Below are positions 5,501-63,274 of a stretch of 64,000 nt of DNA, piece by piece; position 1 is the stretch's first letter, and each line of letters opens with the position of its first letter. A model generated the notes under the pieces. It saw only the letters and a list, made by a program, of their open reading frames with translations. It searched no databases and was not told the DNA's origin. Origin of the DNA: Odontesthes bonariensis (taxonomy: Eukaryota; Chordata; Actinopteri; Atheriniformes; Atherinopsidae); NCBI RefSeq assembly GCF_027942865.1, contig NC_134524.1:4512036-4576035 (forward strand). Reading direction: 5' to 3'. A program made the translations under genes and the position numbers.

Positions 5501-6175
5501 CATGTTGAAGTATCCTTGGGAAAGATCCTCAACCTAGGGGTCTCCTAAATTAACTTTAAAAGTCAGCAGCTGAAAATGTGCACTGGCACTTCATGTGTGT
5601 TGTATACAGGACAACACCAAGGGAAGGGGGAAAGCTTGATGGGTAAATTCCTTGAAGGACACCACACTTGTTCTCCCTGGACCCTAACCCCATTTCCTAG
5701 GTGCATCCCTTAAAGAGTTTAGGTTCTTGTGCCGAGTTACTTTAAGGACGAAGAGGCAGACATGTGACACACTGAACTGAACTGCTTATTCTTTCGCAGA
5801 GAAACCGGCTCCCGGCCTTTAACCCTTTGCCTCCACAAGCGGGACTTCCTTCCTGGACAATGGATTGTGGACAACATCATGAGCGCCATCGAGCGCAGCC
5901 GGCGGACCGTCTTTGTCCTCTCTGAGAACTTTGTCCAGTCCGACTGGTGCCGCTACGAGCTGGACTTCTCCCACTTCTGGCTCTTCGACGCCGGGGGAGA
6001 CGCGGCCATCTTGATCCTGCTGGAGCCGCTGTCCAAGGACGACGTCCCCAAACGCTTCTGCAAGCTGCGCAAACTCATGAGCTCCACCACCTACCTGGAG
6101 TGGCCTCAGGAGGACGAGGGGAAGGAGGAGTTCTGGAGGAGTCTTCGCAATGCTTTGAAAGGAGAGGGCAACTGA
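2551..6175 (+). CDS. tlr2: Toll-like receptor 2-like, copy A (3' half: last LRRs, membrane helix, TIR domain)
   Basis: Five exons join in frame: 2551-2715, 2805-2984, 4128-4268, 4350-4858 and 5800-6175 (457 codons including stop). They correspond to exons 7-11 of the complete copy at 18.1-31.4 kb, with identical lengths for exons 7-10. In order they encode leucine-rich repeats ([34 protein letters not shown]), a cysteine-rich C-terminal cap, a membrane helix near 4600-4670 and a TIR domain with box 1 FDAFVSYS, box 2 RDFLPGQW and box 3 FW. The family senses bacterial lipopeptides and signals via MyD88. The protein ends KGEGN, unlike copy B. No exons for the signal peptide and first LRRs were found between 30 and 2550; they either lie left of the window or are lost. 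Intron 8 carries a nested transposon absent from copy B. No in-frame stop or frameshift was seen. Confidence 0.85.
3000..4046. mobile_element. Composite hAT insertion in intron 8 of TLR2a
   Basis: The insertion is bounded by perfect 8-bp direct repeats GATTAGAC (2992-2999 and 4047-4054). The empty intron in copy B (27069-27156) carries that sequence once and reads straight through. The left part (3000-3202) is a palindromic MITE: CAGTGTTTCTCAATTCC at one end, its reverse complement at the other. The right part (about 3203-4046) is a reverse-oriented copy of the hAT element at 541-1335, ending TGAGTTTGACACCCCTG. An internal (TAA)n run near 3320 and a poly-G tract at about 3421-3441 belong to the insert. 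Confidence 0.8.
4994..5745 (+). repeat. Duplicated block inside TLR2a intron 10
   Basis: A block of about 210-225 bp beginning AAAGATCCTCAACCTAGGGG occurs at about 4994-5205 and again at 5521-5745. The second copy carries about 13 extra bases. Its central part also appears once in intron 10 of TLR2b (about 30728-30916). In both genes the last copy runs into the conserved sequence before the TIR exon, so the block belongs to the ancestral intron and was duplicated in copy A only. Confidence 0.75.
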
Positions 6176-30000: not shown

Positions 30001-31360
30001 AGCCAAGTAGCCCACCCGAAGTTTTTCCGATATTGGCTGAACATCAGCTGAGTTACCGAGTTATCCCGAATAGCTTAGTACAAGGGTTAATGGACCCTGG
30101 CAGTATCTCCAAAATTACCACACTAAAATCACATGCCAACAAAGCAAGGCTGCTCAATTTCTCCATTGATAAAATAAATTCACAACTCTACAACATAAAA
30201 ATTCATAAAAATTCATGTAGAATATAGCATATACTTTGTTGTCTACAGTAGTAGATCAACCCTCATCTTACTTTGAAGCTCCCAGTTCAAGGAAGTGACG
30301 TCGACGCAGCTTTAGCTGCAGAGAAGCTATCAGGCTTGTGTTGATAATAATAAACTCCTGGACTATGTACAAACTTCCAAATGCATCGTTTTGTGAGTAC
30401 AGACCATATTTGTACTACTGTAGAAGTTTGGTGTCATGGCATGTGATTTTATTGTGGTAATTTTGGAGATACTGCCAGGTTCCATTAGCGCTTGTACGAA
30501 GCTATTCGGGATAACTCAGTAACTCAGCTGATGTTCAGCCAATATCGGAAAAACTTCGGGTGGGCTACTTGGCTGGATATCACGGTTCAAATGACCCCAG
30601 GTGAATCTACCCCGAACCATCACTTTAAGTCAATTCTATGACCCATGACAGAAAGAACCCTAATATGCGTTCTTCTTTATTCTCTGACAGGGGGACAGAC
30701 TCTGATAATAAGAGATCCCCTAAGAAAGAGTCTCCTAAATTAACTTTAAAAGTCAGCACTGGCACTTCATGTGTGTTGTATACAGGACAACACCAGGGGA
30801 AGGGGGAAAGCTCGATGGGTAAATACCTTGAAGGACACCACAGTTGTTCTCCCTGGACCCTAACCCCATTTCCTAGGTGCATCCCTTACAGAGTTTAGGT
30901 TCTCGTGCCGAGTTATTTTAAGGACGAAGAGGCAGACATGTGACACACTGAACTGAACTGTTTATTCTTTCGCAGAGAAACCGGCTCCCAGCCTTTAACC
31001 CTTTGCCTCCACAAGCGGGACTTCCTTCCAGGACAATGGATAATGGACAACATCATGAGCGCCATCGAGCGCAGCCGGCGGACCGTCTTTGTCCTCTCTG
31101 AGAACTTTGTCCAGTCCGACTGGTGCCGCTACGAGCTGGACTTCTCCCACTTCTGGCTCTTCGACGCCGGGGGAGACGCGGCCATCTTGATCCTGCTGGA
31201 GCCGCTGTCCAAGGACGACGTCCCCAAACGCTTCTGCAAGCTGCGCAAACTCATGAGCTCCACCACCTACCTGGAGTGGCCTCAGGAGGACGAGGGGAAG
31301 GAGGAGTTCTGGAGGAGTCTTCGCAATGCTTTGAAAGGAGAGGATGAGGAGGATGATTGA
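18093..31360 (+). CDS. tlr2: Toll-like receptor 2, copy B (complete)
   Basis: Eleven coding exons with GT-AG introns close in frame to 810 codons plus stop: 18093-18357, 18435-18591, 19450-19599, 19682-19888, 19992-20114, 23562-23712, 25209-25373, 26889-27068, 27157-27297, 28002-28510, 30976-31360. The product is a type I membrane receptor for bacterial lipopeptides, usually paired with TLR1/6-type partners. Visible parts are a signal peptide ([20 protein letters not shown]), leucine-rich repeats such as [13 protein letters not shown], a C-terminal cap near residues 536-573, a membrane helix about 596-617, and a TIR domain from about 655 with FDAFVSYS, the BB-loop RDFLPGQW (proline 701) and FW. 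A CTACAG acceptor just before the ATG suggests an upstream non-coding exon. Length and exon count fit teleost TLR2. It is intact, although introns 2, 5, 7, 9 and 10 carry transposons. Confidence 0.93.
18684..19320 (+). mobile_element. DNA transposon family with GGCTGTGTTCG-type ends, copy 2 (TLR2b intron 2)
   Basis: It starts near GAAACCGCATACTTCTCC and ends in GTATGTAGTATGTAGTATG repeats. The interior matches copies at 12945-13580 and 44425-46243. This copy retains the uninterrupted sequence GAGCTTAAGGGAAATCAGC, which is split by a Harbinger element in the third copy. Confidence 0.7.
20690..22330. mobile_element. Element with repeated GTCGGAATGG motifs (TLR2b intron 5)
   Basis: The left side reads CATGCTGCCATTCCAACATA and CCGACATTCCGACATTGACG; the right side carries GTGTCGGAATGGTGG, GTGTCGGAATGGCGGGATG and GATGTCGGAATGCCGGTTGC. 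The two sides form loose inverted, internally repeated ends. A minus-strand segment near 22100-21905 could encode [18 protein letters not shown], a basic coiled-coil-like stretch that may be a transposase remnant. A poly-G run lies at about 22179-22191. The family was not identified. Confidence 0.5.
22331..23561. other. Rest of TLR2b intron 5, nothing recognised
   Basis: No exon-like frame with splice sites, RNA gene or bounded repeat was seen before the acceptor at 23560-23561. Confidence 0.5.
25409..26813 (+). mobile_element. Penelope-like element fragment (TLR2b intron 7)
   Basis: Near 25540-25610 the plus strand encodes a segment with [20 protein letters not shown]-like residues, and near 26308-26500 one with [18 protein letters not shown] and [10 protein letters not shown]. 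Both are typical of the reverse-transcriptase ORF of teleost Penelope-like elements. About 45 bp near 25409-25460 and 26768-26813 are inverted copies of each other, as in Penelope terminal structures. The ORF is interrupted by a TTAA-flanked MITE (25652-26305) and degraded by stops. Confidence 0.75.
25652..26305. mobile_element. piggyBac-type MITE inside the Penelope element
   Basis: The ends AGGGATAGTTCGCCTCTT and its reverse complement are flanked by TTAA on both sides (25648-25651, 26306-26309). Long inverted arms include CTTACCCCCTGCTGCGTCCT. Reading across one TTAA restores the Penelope frame locally (a DGSL residue run joined to TEVYRKP). A sister copy lies at 46991-47701. Confidence 0.85.
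27319..27938 (+). mobile_element. Harbinger element with transposase N-terminal remnant (TLR2b intron 9)
   Basis: The inverted ends CGGTGCGTTCACACCG lie inside a TAA / TTA target pair (27316-27318, 27939-27941). The corresponding intron of TLR2a lacks the element. The plus strand encodes a broken frame with [20 protein letters not shown], then [20 protein letters not shown] and [11 protein letters not shown], which match the start of Harbinger nucleases. The catalytic region is deleted. A diverged copy lies at 44904-45507. Confidence 0.8.
29950..30624. mobile_element. TTAA-flanked MITE (TLR2b intron 10)
   Basis: The ends AGTGATGGTTCGGAGTAGAT and a close inverted copy are bounded by TTAA (29946-29949, 30625-30628). 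Arms of more than 150 bp pair with each other (for example GGAGATACTGCCAGG against CCTGGCAGTATCTCC). There is no coding content. TLR2a intron 10 lacks it. Confidence 0.75.
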
Positions 31361-34310: not shown

Positions 34311-37300
34311 CTAATGTGTGTCCATCAGTTCCTCAGAATCTGATGACTCCCCCTCTCTAGAGGATTCATCCTTCGCGCCAGCCACAACTTCAATGATATT
34401 TTCTAGGTATGGATTTCCCTTTGCTTCCTCGCAAACTCTCGCCAACACCGCTGTGCTTCCGGCTTTCTTCAGAGAACTCACAAGCTCTTTAAATATACTG
34501 AGCAGAGGATAGCAGTACTCAATCACACTGTGATCTGGCTTCGGAAAGCCGAAGAAAAAGCCACCAGAGTGCAAACCGAAAACCTGACCGTGAGCATCAA
34601 ACACCGGGGAGCCTGAGGAGCCATGATACATGGAAATGGAATTCTTGTAGGTCACAACAACATCTGCCAGCTGCTCCTTTTCGATCGCTTGCTTGACCGA
34701 GCAGACCGTAAATAAGTAATCCTGGTAGTCCTCTAAACTCTTGTCGACAGCCTGATCCCTCTCATCTTTTCTGATGATACATGTGGGATCCATTTTCTTC
34801 ACCTCACCTGCTGGGTGACCAACAACACAGGCCTCCCCATCCCCAGGCAGGGGACCAAACCTCTTCAGGAGCCCTGGTGGTACATCAGATGTCTCAGGGA
34901 TGAGCTCAAGCAGGACACAATCTAGTTGATCACTGCCAACAGGTGCTGGGATGTTTTGTCGGGACCCTGAAGTTATTGTAGAAAATGGATGGACGGAGGG
35001 ATTGTCAATAAACACTTTGGCATCAAGCTTTTTCGATCCAACAGCATGACTTTCAAAGTGGAACTCAGCAGTGATTTTAATATATTCCCACCACTTTTCT
35101 ATTCCCCGGTTTGCAAAGTCTTTGCATAAGTGGGCATTCGTCAGGATGAAGTTGTCAAACAGCACAAAGCCTGTGCCCTGAAATGACTTAGAGGAGCTGG
35201 TGTCACTTATCCTCAACAGACAAACTGACTCACTGAGCTTCACCAGCTCCCTCACTGTGGAAACTTTACTAAAAGACTGCTGGATCTTTCCAAAGTTCTC
35301 CTTGCTCACCTTCAGTGCTTTCTTAAAGGACTGACCAGGAAACCTGTTCTCCATCCATCCTTTCAGGCCCTGGAACTGCTCACGCAGAAGGTCATAGATC
35401 TCCTGCATGTTGACATTGGTGCCTGTCTCTCTAATAGCTTCTTTTACACTGATACCCTTCTCCTGTGCTCGCTCTAGGACTGATATTGTTTCGCTCTTGC
35501 TTTGTGAATCATTTGATGCACACTGGGTTTTCTGCTGTTCCTGTTTTACATGACTGGCCGGTTGTTTTCCATTACTGGCCGGTTGTTTTGTGCCTTTTGT
35601 TTTGAATCTTTTGTCCTTTGGAAGTTGAATCCTGAAACACCTTTTGTTCATCTTTCCACTGACAGATGCTGTGCACTTGGTGATGTCTTTGTTTTTGTTA
35701 TCGCACAGAGCGAAGTCGCTGAGATCGTCCACAAAGCGGCCATCTTGTTTCAGAGCCTGCTCCACGGTCATCTCACTCTTCTCTCCATAAACACAGAAAT
35801 ACTTAAACTCTTCACGAATATCTGTGCATCTAAAGATCTGCTTTGCCTTGGATTTACTGTCTTTCCCTCCCACATTTTCAATATAGAATACACAGTAATG
35901 TTCTTTCTCTTGGACCTGGTACCTTGTTTGGTTTTGGGCCTCCATAACCCTTTTTGATGTACTAACGGTCAGACATTCATCTTCCTCAACACAAGAACAA
36001 GGAAAATTTGTTGCAAGAAGAGACGCATCGGCCCCTTCACCCAACCTAATGATAATGTTCTCATCTGCTCCATTTATCTTTTGATTGAACTCATCTGCTA
36101 GATGGGATTTTATGGCCTCCAGCAATGTTTGTGGTTGATGACAGTCAATGGTGTATTTCTGGTCATCTGAACCGAATTTCACTTTGAAGCAATGTTCATG
36201 TTTTCCCTGCAGGGAATCAGAAGAGAAAATGAAGGTTAGAGTACAATAAAAGCACAGCTTATGCAGCATTTATAACAGTGAGTGCACTCACCGATGAAAC
36301 AGCATCCTTTGTGGACTCCTCCTTTACTTTCTTTTGAGCCTTCTGCAAAGCAAGAGAGAGATTTAGATTTTGAGAAAGTTCAAATAAACTGCCTGTTCAA
36401 AACAAAAAGTCACACGATCTAATATTGTGTTGGACCTCCAGCTCTGATTACAGCACACATTCGCTGTGGCATTGTTTCGATAAGATTCTGCAGATTCTGT
36501 TGTCATAACATTTATTTCCGTCCAGAGTTGCATTCATTTTCTGCCAAGATCTTGTAGTGACGATGGAAGAGACGGATTCTCAAATGGATTAAGGACTCTG
36601 TGGGGGCCAATCCATGTGTGAAAATTATGTCTCATGCTCCCTGAACCACTTCCACAATTTGAGCCCCATGAATCCTGGCATTGTCATCTTGGAATATACC
36701 TGAGCCATCAGGGAAGTGAAAATCCACTGATGGACCCTCACCAAGGGCGATGAGACTCACTACAGGAAGGAGGTCGACCTTCTGACCACGTGGTGCAGAA
36801 GTAACAACCTCCTGCTGAATGTCAGCAAGACCAAGGACCAAGACCAATTGTTAGCGATGCAAGCCACCCTGCTCACAATTTGTTCAGCCTCCTGTCATCC
36901 GGGAAAAGGTATAGGAGCCTCCGCTCCCAAACCACCAGACTCACCAACAGCTTCACCAACAGCTTCATCCACCAGGCTGTTAGGATGTTAAACTCTCTCC
37001 CCTCACCACCCTCAATCACCAGGCTGGATGGAAGATGAGAACCCCCCCCCCATGACTGTCTTTGGACTATTATTCTGCCACTTGCACACTTAAGGCTCTA
37101 GCATGGTTGCCGCGTCTGCTAGCGCGAGCGGTGTTGATGACGTCACGATTTCGTGCCCGCAATATATAGTGGCGCAAGTCGTTGCGCCAGTAGTTGCAAT
37201 TTTCTCCGTCACAGAGGTGGCGCTGCTACGTTAAGGTTACCGCTACTCTACAACCACGAAAGTGGAGAAGAAAACAATGCCTCTGTCAAGAGCAGGAATA

Positions 37301-43685: not shown

Positions 43686-56354
<12,669 letters not shown>

Positions 56355-58450: not shown

Positions 58451-58652
58451 TTAGTTTCACTTTGCATCAGATGGATTTATTTCTTCAACACAAATCACAC
58501 GAATCCAACTTTATAATGATGCGACAGAAGAAAAGAAGAAGTCCCATCATGTGAAATCGGCACCTTCTTTTCAACAGTGGACCTGTGGGAAGAAGGAAAT
58601 TCAGTCACCAAAAAACACAACTCCAAGCTAATATTCACCACTAAAATTAAAG

Positions 58653-58745
58653 TCGCTCAGACATCCAAGGAAGGTTTGGGCCATCTTTGGTCGTGAGACC
58701 TCTGGTGGAAACTACGAATGGCAGGGAAAAGCATCATCACAGCGA
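58653..58745 (-). ncRNA. SNORD14: C/D-box snoRNA U14 (SNORD14), copy 5 of 5
   Basis: Minus-strand 93-mer with C box GTGATGA (58740-58734), D box CTGA (58660-58657) and a terminal GTCGCT/AGCGAC stem. It contains CATTCGTAGTTTCCACCAGA, matching the conserved U14 18S-rRNA-pairing domain. Its 3' end is 71 nt from the exon 7 acceptor side. U14 is required for early 18S rRNA processing and guides one 2'-O-methylation. Confidence 0.9.
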
Positions 58746-58931
58746 CTAGACCAACAAAAATAATGCCAACCTAAACATACACACCAGTTTCTCAATCATT
58801 GGTCAGCAATGTTAGGACTCTTCTGCTCTGTCATCGGTCCAAACAGCCCAGGGGAAAGATGATCAGCCTAAAATAACACGATAAGAGTTAGTTCTGAAAG
58901 AGAAGAACGGGAAGTTTACAACATCTACTGT

Positions 58932-59024
58932 TCGCTCAGACATCCAAGGAAGGTTTGGGCCATCTTTGGTCGTTAGACCTCTGGTGGAAACTACGAATGG
59001 CAGGGAAAAGCATCATCACAGCAA
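58932..59024 (-). ncRNA. SNORD14: C/D-box snoRNA U14 (SNORD14), copy 4 of 5
   Basis: Same organisation as the other copies; it differs at a base in the middle (GTCTAACGACC instead of GTCTCACGACC). The terminal stem has one wobble pair (TTGCT/AGCGA). Its 3' end lies 65 nt from exon 6. Confidence 0.88.
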
Positions 59025-59221
59025 CTAGAACAAAAAAATAATGCCAACCTAAACATACATACCAGTTTCTCAATCATTGGTCAGCAATGTTAGGACTCTG
59101 CTGCTTTGTCATCGGTCCAAACAGCCCCGGGGAAAGATGTTCAGCCTAAAATGAAACAACAAGTTTGCTTTGAAATGGGAAAACTCAAATAGAAAAAGAA
59201 ATAAAAATGTAAATCTATTGT

Positions 59222-59314
59222 TCGCTCAGACATCCAAGGAAGGTTTGGGCCATCTTTGGTCGTGAGACCTCTGGTGGAAACTACGAATGGCAGGGAAAAG
59301 CATCATCACAGCGA
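59222..59314 (-). ncRNA. SNORD14: C/D-box snoRNA U14 (SNORD14), copy 3 of 5
   Basis: C box GTGATGA, D box CTGA, TCGCT/AGCGA stem and the CATTCGTAGTTTCCACC domain are all intact. It lies in intron 4 of the host, 77 nt from exon 5. Confidence 0.9.
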
Positions 59315-59526
59315 CCAGTGAGTACAGCTGGACTTCTAAAATTCCATATACTCCATCACTGCTGGATACCAACCTGGAACCAACCGCTGATGCAGGAGCT
59401 TCCTTCCACTGGAGACCAGCTAACGTAGCCCTCAGCAGAGACCGTGTACCTGAAACAAACATGTAGGATGTTAAGTTCTGGAGCACATGGGATGGGGCAG
59501 ATGATATGGTCTACGTTTATATTATG

Positions 59527-59619
59527 TCGCTCAGACATCCAAGGAAGGTTTGGGCCATCTTTGGTCGTGAGACCTCTGGTGGAAACTACGAATGGCAGGG
59601 AAAAGCATCATCACAGCGA
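59527..59619 (-). ncRNA. SNORD14: C/D-box snoRNA U14 (SNORD14), copy 2 of 5
   Basis: Intact boxes and stem. It lies in intron 3 of the host, 78 nt from exon 4. A pyrimidine tract with CCAG just upstream mimics a splice acceptor but belongs to the intron. Confidence 0.9.
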
Positions 59620-59816
59620 CTGGAAGAAAAAGAATAATGTAACCTAAACACACATACCAGTTTCTGAATCATTGGTCAGCATTGTTGGGACTCTGCTGCT
59701 CCGTTATCTGTCCAAACAGCCCCGGGGAAAGATGTTCAGCCTAAAATGATACAACAAGTTTGCTTTGAAATGGAAGAACTCGATTAGGAAAAAATAAATA
59801 AATGCAAATCTATTGT

Positions 59817-59909
59817 TCGCTCAGACATCCAAGGAAGGTTTGGGCCATCTTTGGTCGTTAGACCTCTGGTGGAAACTACGAATGGCAGGGAAAAGCATCA
59901 TCACAGCGA
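59817..59909 (-). ncRNA. SNORD14: C/D-box snoRNA U14 (SNORD14), copy 1 of 5
   Basis: Intact boxes and stem, with the same mid-sequence variant as copy 4 (GTCTAACGACC). It lies in intron 2 of the host, 77 nt from exon 3. The flank upstream of it differs from the other units, so it marks the 5' edge of the duplicated array. Confidence 0.9.
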
Positions 59910-60751
59910 GAAGCAGACCAGATCAGAGCTGGTTAAGTCAATAACTGAACTATAGGTTTTATCCAGCTGGTGTCACAACCGTACAACTTCATAGAGATAT
60001 TACGGATCTTAACCATAACTCCCTTTTAAGTATGGTGTGAATTTTCTAAATCCTTCCACAGTGGATGTTGCCGTATGGGACAAAATTAAGCCATCAAAGA
60101 AAGATGATCTCTTTGAATCTCAAAGTTTTTTTTCAGTCCATCCTCAGTTTATTGTTTACATTAAAACCAGTATCAGTGTAAGAGTAAAGTAGAACATGTC
60201 CAGGGTTTATTGGAAGGTAAAAAAAAAAAAATCTTTAGCCGACACCAGCTGTTAATGGCAGAGGAAACTAAGATTAAAATAAAAGTTGAAGCTCACCTGT
60301 CCACAGGTTTCTTTCTGCCTCTCGTGCTGAAAGAATAACCAGAATCCTCCATGTTGGCACAGCTTGGCATCCTCGCTGTGGTGTCCCTGAAGGTCGTGTT
60401 CCACAAACAACAAAGCAGCCCAACTTTTAGGGAGTCGCTGCAGACGTCCACAGAACAAGCAGGAACATTTAAAACCTGGAAAGAGAAGACGGAAATTAAT
60501 GGATTCATTTAGATGCCAAATGAACAAAAGCGCATTTTTCTATGAAGATTTAACTCAATTATGGTCAGTTCAAGTCAAATATACAGAGACATTTAAGTCA
60601 AATTATACAGATAACACAATCAGTTTAAATTAAATACTATAGCTCACTGTTTATACTGACATATTAGTACTGTTAATTCAGTTAGTACTGCTCCACTTGC
60701 CACATTAATACAGATCTGCCACTGCCTTTTCAGCAACCATCTTTTAGCTTG

Positions 60752-60752
<1 letters not shown>

Positions 60753-60785
<33 letters not shown>
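60753..60785. repeat. (TA)n microsatellite in host-gene intron 1
   Basis: About 16 TA dinucleotides in a row. It lies outside all snoRNA units. Confidence 0.9.
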
Positions 60786-60786
<1 letters not shown>

Positions 60787-61470
60787 TCCTCTATATTTTA
60801 TTTTCATATTTATTGCGGTTTGCACCAGGGATAAGAAGGAAACGCCATTTCAATTCTCAGTGTGTCCTGTACATATGGCAGCATTGGTAATAAAGTTGAC
60901 TTGACTAATCCCCATGTAGCTGTAACATGATTACCGTTTATAAAGCTTGAAAAACAACTTTTATTCCAGCTAACTAGCTCTCCATGTTTACATACTCGGA
61001 CCATAATGCTTTCAGGATAAATAATCTAGTAAAACAAGACTTTAAAAATACTGAAACTAACTAAAAGTAGTGAAAAACAAAAAGATTTGATATATAAAAA
61101 CAATCTTAGCACCATTTCCGCTAAAGATAACCCCCATGCTTCCACCACGTGGTACGCTGCTAAAGTGCAGTTTTAAATAAAGTTTTTTTAAACAAACTGC
61201 CCGTTATCGTCATAGAAACGCGGCTCGATTAAAGAAAAAAAAAAAAGCTAGAGTCCTTTAGAGTTACATTATCTTTACAACAGGAGACATCCACCGCCAT
61301 CCGCTGCATTTACTCCTCATATCATGTAAATATCACCATCTAACAGCTAAATATAACCTATTTAAAAGGGATAATGTTTTTATTTAAGGTATAAAGACAA
61401 TATTTAGGCCATATTTACCGTCATTGTCCGACCAGTCTCCGACTCCCCCACTGCTCCTGTTCAACTGACC

Positions 61471-61498
61471 GAAGGCGCGCTGCTCCGCCTTTTAAATA
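61471..61498 (-). promoter_or_regulatory. Core promoter of the U14 host gene
   Basis: Minus-strand TATTTAAAAG at 61498-61489 is followed about 14-18 bases later by CGCCTTCGG, a candidate oligopyrimidine start. This is a typical arrangement for snoRNA host and ribosomal-protein genes. The exact start site is inferred, not seen. Confidence 0.5.
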
Positions 61499-62594: not shown

Positions 62595-63274
62595 TAGGGC
62601 TGGGCAACCATTAAAATATTTAATCTAATTAATCTCATGATTTTCCTGATTAATCATGATTAATCGCATTTGTACGCAAAATCCAAAATTGAATCCAAAA
62701 GTAGCGTATAGCTTTTAGCATTTAGTTTTATTTTAAATGTGCTGCCATATGAATGAAAGTGCCATAACATTTGTTGTGCAAACACACTTTTAACATCAGC
62801 ATCTTTCTGTAGTTTTTATGTAGAAGCCTCGCTCCACTGTCTGTTTCCTTGAATGACTTGCTGCTATCAGTTGTGTGTTTTGCCTTTAAGTGATATTTTA
62901 GACTGGAACTACTACGCTGAGAAGACAATTCAACTTGGCAGTGTTTACAGATGACTTTGGTTCTGTCGACTCCGCCGTCTGGAAGAACTTTAAAATGAAA
63001 ATGGCCGAGTAAAAGTTCCGTACCCTTCTCCATGTTTGGTGGATCCGCCGATTACTTTCTTTTCCTGTTCCACAGCAGACAGCAGCAGACTTTTACAAAA
63101 TAAAAGCCTGTGAGCAGCAGACTTTTACAAAATAAAATAAATAATAAAACTTTATTTGATTTTAAACAGACTTTTACAATAATAAAAGCCTGCGTTAATG
63201 CGCGATTAAATATTTATCGCGTTAAATAATCAATGCGTTAACGCGATTATAACGAGTGAACTCGCCCAGCCCTA
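62595..63274 (-). mobile_element. hAT element with BED zinc finger (TAGGGCTGGG ends), second copy
   Basis: TAGGGCTGGGC and GCCCAGCCCTA are flanked by perfect 8-bp repeats ATAAAAAC (62587-62594, 63275-63282). The minus strand (63033-62728) encodes VICKHCQVELSSQRSSSSLK followed by YHLKAKH, a BED finger with intact C-x2-C and H-x4-H. The remaining transposase is missing. It is the same family as 40046-40529. Confidence 0.87.

Follow-up and report, generated by a model that had tools for sequence, protein, structure and literature searches.

U14 is a snoRNA required for 18S rRNA maturation, and three copies of it are carried by hsc70 of human, mouse and rat, as stated in the part of PMC7277114 drawn on here. 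The standard arrangement, according to the relevant part of the review PMC11028025, is one snoRNA per intron and several per host gene, and hosts may be non-coding. The same source describes arrays in which C/D snoRNAs of one family stand in tandem, namely rat Bsr, SNORD113/114 and SNORD115/116; the host of the Bsr snoRNAs is a non-coding gene with tandemly repeated introns, and more such same-family arrays are expected in understudied genomes. For zebrafish snoRNA host genes, both kinds of start (TOP/TCT and initiator) were reported within one promoter (PMC6954239, in part). Changes in SNORD14 expression have been reported in medaka and zebrafish in passages that give no host gene, and among the matches listed for open-access full texts none described a fish host gene dedicated to several U14 copies.

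The window, which is the whole stretch of DNA analysed here, comprised 64,000 nucleotides of the Odontesthes bonariensis genome. It contains, with high probability, a snoRNA host gene that is transcribed by RNA polymerase II, non-coding, present in a single copy, devoted to U14 and enlarged by tandem duplication. The coordinates of its features and of neighbouring exons are as in Table 1.

Table 1. Features of the U14 locus, in the order of its predicted transcript, and of neighbouring genes in the window.
Feature	Position	Strand	Remarks
TATA-like box TATTTAAAA	61490-61498	-	read from the sequence; putative function
Predicted exon 1	61419-61475	-	CCTTCGG start, ends ATGACG then gtaaat; presumed start site
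Predicted exon 2	60297-60475	-	179 nt; splice consensus
U14 copy s5	59817-59909	-	RF00016 70.3 bits; intron 2, first in transcript order
Predicted exon 3	59658-59740	-	83 nt, repeated unit; stop codon of first-ATG frame
U14 copy s4	59527-59619	-	RF00016 70.5 bits; intron 3
Predicted exon 4	59370-59449	-	donor GT at 59373 or 59369
U14 copy s3	59222-59314	-	RF00016 70.5 bits; intron 4
Predicted exon 5	59063-59145	-	83 nt, repeated unit
U14 copy s2	58932-59024	-	RF00016 68.1 bits; intron 5
Predicted exon 6	58785-58867	-	83 nt, repeated unit
U14 copy s1	58653-58745	-	RF00016 70.5 bits; intron 6
Predicted last exon	58455-58582	-	AATAAA at 58481-58476; presumed 3' end
RING exons, RNF121/RNF175 type	46305-46394 and 46541-46636	-	located with a query fragment
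TIR-domain exons, TLR-type	5768-6172 and 30944-31357	+	74.3 bits each

A search of the window with the Rfam model SNORD14 (RF00016) produced five minus-strand matches of 93 nt each with scores of 68.1 to 70.5 bits, all of them above the gathering score of 64 bits that served as cut-off. Pairwise differences among the five copies amounted to 0-2 of 93 positions and three copies were identical, which confirmed the original prediction of five nearly identical 93-bp U14 blocks on the minus strand. The 20-base U14 core occurred five times with zero mismatches, and 0 occurrences were expected from 100 shuffles. The C box GTGATGA, the D box CTGA and the closing stem were intact in all five copies; a single stem substitution in s2 retained a G-U pair. 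The variants of the host type had 5'-TCGCT or TTGCT at their start and TCTC or TCTA at nt 48-51. No other snoRNA family in Rfam scored above its own cut-off in the window or the host locus. Matches to SNORD53/92 in the host were faint echoes of the five U14 blocks below the family cut-off, and one mir-297 match there was at chance level; both were discarded. C/D RNAs usually fold weakly, and the three of five copies that were folded did so no better than shuffles (z 0.46, 0.27 and -0.11).

Splice consensus allowed a predicted gene of seven exons with GT-AG borders to be drawn on the minus strand from ~61475 to 58455. By eye, a TCAGTT initiator was found with its A at 61466, 32 nt downstream of the TATA-like TATTTAAAA, and a TOP/TCT-like CCTTCGG begins 9 nt ahead of this A, at the presumed start of ~61475, where the TOP-like run is short (CCTTC). 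The two candidate donors of exon 4 are not strong, and no similarity of exon 4 to exons 3, 5 and 6 was found; in the frame and unit comparisons this exon was cut at 59371, which is 1-3 nt off the candidate ends and leaves the conclusions on exons 1-3 unaffected. Introns 2-6 hold one U14 each, in line with the proposal that every copy stands alone in an intron, while intron 1 is free of U14 and holds an interspersed repeat. This repeat (60638-60906, minus strand) adjoins an AT microsatellite and had at least 39 other genomic copies, with 40 of 121 candidates scored. Because it swamped the search with the whole locus, exon 1 and most of intron 1 were left out when the search for further host copies was rerun. 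This rerun found the host, from exon 2 to its end, nowhere else: the three candidates, all scored, were the locus itself and the two U14s of hspa8.

The distances from the 3' end of U14 to the predicted end of the intron were 76, 77, 76, 64 and 70 nt for introns 2 to 6, and the originally given spacing of 65-78 nt to the 3' splice site differs from these values by one base of counting. A distance of ~50 nt to the branch point is favourable for box C/D assembly according to part of a review (PMC8162545), and the spacing of 64-77 nt fits this rule. A YTNAY scan produced good branch-point candidates in three of the five introns, at 33 (s5), 56 (s4) and 44 nt (s2) from the snoRNA, and no well-placed candidate in the introns of s3 and s1. 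In addition, a polypyrimidine-AG tract adjoins the 5' end of U14 in three of the five introns (minus strand: 59620-59629, TTTCTTCCAG; 59025-59034, TTTGTTCTAG; 58746-58755, GTTGGTCTAG). These tracts resemble decoy 3' splice sites 38-39 nt from the donor and were treated as unused because their use would give introns of only 38-39 nt.

The assembly searched for U14 outside the locus had 945 Mb in 187 contigs. SNORD14 was found with Rfam in at least seven places, five at the host locus and one in each of two hspa8 copies; the count is a lower bound, with 121 of 26602 first-look candidates scored. A genome-wide search for the box-B pattern, one mismatch being allowed, recovered the same seven places. 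The two hspa8 copies lie on C21, 19.5 kb apart and inverted on opposite strands, and their U14s are identical. A 195-aa exon of one of these genes best matched heat shock cognate 71 kDa protein (E 1.8e-116), and the other gene, its paralogue, is 96% identical to it along 1634 bp and 77% along a further stretch. The spacing between U14 and the 3' splice site, read by eye for one of the two hspa8 copies (L009), is 76 nt. The rps13 gene of human and frog also carries U14. Here, rps13 had one match that covered the whole gene (seven of seven candidates scored), in which U14 was not found and SNORA19 (108 bits) occupies the last intron (L018, 7202-7332, plus strand). Thus, of the usual locations named in the original prediction, introns of HSC70 and of a ribosomal protein gene, the former still carry U14 with one copy per paralogue and rps13 does not.

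Compared with the hspa8 U14, the host U14 showed 11 (s5) or 12 differences per 93 positions. The positions regarded as constrained were 48 chosen by the analysts (stem 1-4/90-93, C 6-12, A 24-38, B 72-85 and D 86-89); none of them was changed in four copies, and one was changed in s2, in the stem with G-U kept. For s1, 0 of 12 differences fell in these positions (hypergeometric p 7e-5). Boxes A and B were identical across all five copies. Box A of s1 formed 15 bp with 18S including one G-U, and box B formed 14 Watson-Crick bp that end directly at box D. The pairing target was an 18S piece within a transposon copy (L032), used because rDNA was not found in the assembly: two patterns of the 18S 3' part had no match to genuine 18S rDNA there. 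One stretch of at least 14 bp (G-U allowed) was reached by 15 of 300 mononucleotide shuffles of U14, so the pairing length alone is not decisive; what decides is that both stretches fall at the U14 boxes. For human U14, part of PMC12645875 reports contacts suited to guiding at 18S-83 and 18S-462.

A 26-base 18S rRNA pattern had 124 exact copies in the genome (68 plus, 56 minus), and the 100 of 124 that were listed are dispersed over many chromosomes. All six places examined hold an element that starts with TAGGGGTGGGCGATATG or nearly so (e.g., L031, 3116-4071), and five of the six elements have an inverted end, a length of 928-956 bp and a perfect 8-bp target duplication, the size of duplication that hAT elements generate. 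The U14 box-B target was present in all six, and the box-A target was exact in five and had one change in the remaining one. No report of an 18S-carrying hAT element was found among the matches listed for open-access full texts. More speculatively, transcripts of such elements, if made, could sequester U14 and in this way favour extra U14 copies. Within the window, a hAT-like relic of 680 bp (62595-63274, minus strand) with the ends TAGGGCTGGGC/GCCCAGCCCTA and the 8-bp target duplication GTTTTTAT holds a BED zinc-finger frame (62728-63048, 3.7e-8) and lies ~1.1 kb upstream of the presumed start of the host.

Elsewhere in the window, the two TIR exons probably belong to two TLR-type genes in tandem; matches to leucine-rich repeats between them were weak and below the cut-off. 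The RING exons at 46305-46394 and 46541-46636, located with a query fragment, are of the RNF121/RNF175 type, and an array of AGTATGT units (45599-46224) ends 80 bp from a RING exon. A tandem array of 3.9 kb with periods of 21, 42 and 63 (48279-52159) has long open frames on both strands, which were taken for repeat artefacts and not for genes. A 651-aa frame at 34311-36269 on the minus strand matched a trypsin-like domain (Trypsin_2, 5.4e-14) and is possibly FAM111-like.

Exons 3, 5 and 6 are duplicates of 83 nt each, blocks of U14-exon-U14 are repeated, and Tandem Repeats Finder reported a period of 290 with 4.3 copies. Between units, the snoRNAs were 98-100% alike and the exons 89-95%; the upstream flanks were 79-95% and the downstream flanks 73-91% alike at aligned positions, with indels besides. 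Growth by tandem duplication of exon-intron (U14-exon) units is the best reading of this pattern, and the differences between the units make an assembly duplicate an unlikely explanation of the array. Either selection or local gene conversion would suffice to keep the snoRNAs while the flanks drifted. A stronger constraint on the exons than on the flanks was seen in one of three unit pairs (4/83 vs 17/62 differences, p 2e-4), was marginal in the second (p 0.07) and absent in the third (p 1), and is not claimed.

Duplicated units and a U14 retained in hspa8 are also compatible with a recent and mostly silent tandem repeat, which arose from a single U14 insertion by unequal crossing-over while hspa8 makes all U14. 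However, neutral copies should decay along with their flanks, and here the flanks have diverged at up to 27% of aligned positions, apart from indels, yet all five snoRNAs keep every box, which counts against silence; the 3' splice sites and their spacing are likewise kept in all five introns. Gene conversion limited to the snoRNA could mimic the retention of the boxes, and overall a silent repeat is considered unlikely. The spacing and the 3' splice sites kept in five of five introns also argue against U14 copies that are made independently of host splicing from a promoter before each copy, as do the promoter-like elements read by eye ahead of exon 1. A few vertebrate snoRNAs are made in that way, U14 not being among those named in the part of PMC3349704 considered, and such a mode of production is highly improbable for this locus.

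Coding potential bears on whether the host instead encodes a small unrecognised protein, with U14 intronic as in hspa8. In the predicted transcript, a frame of 73 aa starts at the first ATG and spans exons 1-3; a first-ATG frame reached this length in 31 of 1000 Markov shuffles, and as the longest frame this length is ordinary (254 of 1000). A second frame is open for 101 codons, though without ATG. Neither of these two longest host frames matched a Pfam family, with E values of up to 1 allowed. The first frame stops in exon 3 with four exons remaining, and with four exon junctions beyond the stop the transcript is predicted to undergo nonsense-mediated decay. In addition, the length of the repeated exons is not a multiple of three, so that their duplication shifts, and would break, any reading frame. 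A small protein is therefore quite unlikely, and the host is likely non-coding and likely a target of decay. Of the original prediction, a separate host is supported, as a predicted gene with no protein domain recognisable in Pfam.

The reading of the five-copy locus as a real U14 host gene is therefore retained, and judged from its sequence the gene is probably working. Transcription would start from the TATA/TOP-like promoter near 61475, and the transcript would be spliced through seven exons. Each U14 in introns 2-6 would assemble with box C/D proteins, aided by the fixed distance to the 3' splice site, and would then be trimmed out of the debranched intron. The mature U14 would pair with 18S at two sites, acting in 18S maturation and in 2'-O-methylation next to box D, and the spliced exons would be a by-product removed by nonsense-mediated decay. 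The array would add U14 to that from the two hspa8 genes, and with five of at least seven genomic U14 copies the locus is plausibly a major source. That a so far unrecognised teleost gene has taken over most U14 production, as five copies in a TOP host against two in hspa8 and none in rps13 may suggest, is a tentative and rather doubtful idea; if true, placement in a growth-regulated (TOP) host would make U14 dose track ribosome demand and not the hspa8 promoter. The 11-12 positions that differ between host-type and hspa8-type U14 mean that small-RNA reads could quantify each source. With U14 in five of its introns, the gene is a clean natural test bed for the control of snoRNA dose, lets one ask how intronic snoRNA arrays grow yet stay uniform, and bears on how housekeeping snoRNAs move between hosts such as hspa8, rps13 and a dedicated host.

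Compared with known systems, the U14 of mammalian hsc70/HSPA8 belongs to the same RNA family and is intronic like the five host copies, and the hspa8 U14 of O. bonariensis has the same length of 93 nt. However, each hspa8 gene here carries one copy and not the three of mammalian hsc70, and the five further copies have a gene of their own, with no recognisable protein. Like hosts of the UHG/SNHG type such as GAS5, this locus has single snoRNAs in its predicted introns and an early stop codon, and its exons are probably non-coding, with a putative TOP-like start. GAS5 is described as carrying several snoRNAs, and these are of different kinds, whereas the host found here carries five copies of one RNA. 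In this it resembles the same-family C/D tandem arrays of rat Bsr, SNORD113/114 and SNORD115/116. The mammalian arrays are large, and SNORD113-116 are tied to imprinting; the snoRNA repeated five times here is an ancient one that serves ribosome production. Overall, the locus combines known parts in an unusual arrangement around a single RNA, and its novelty is modest.
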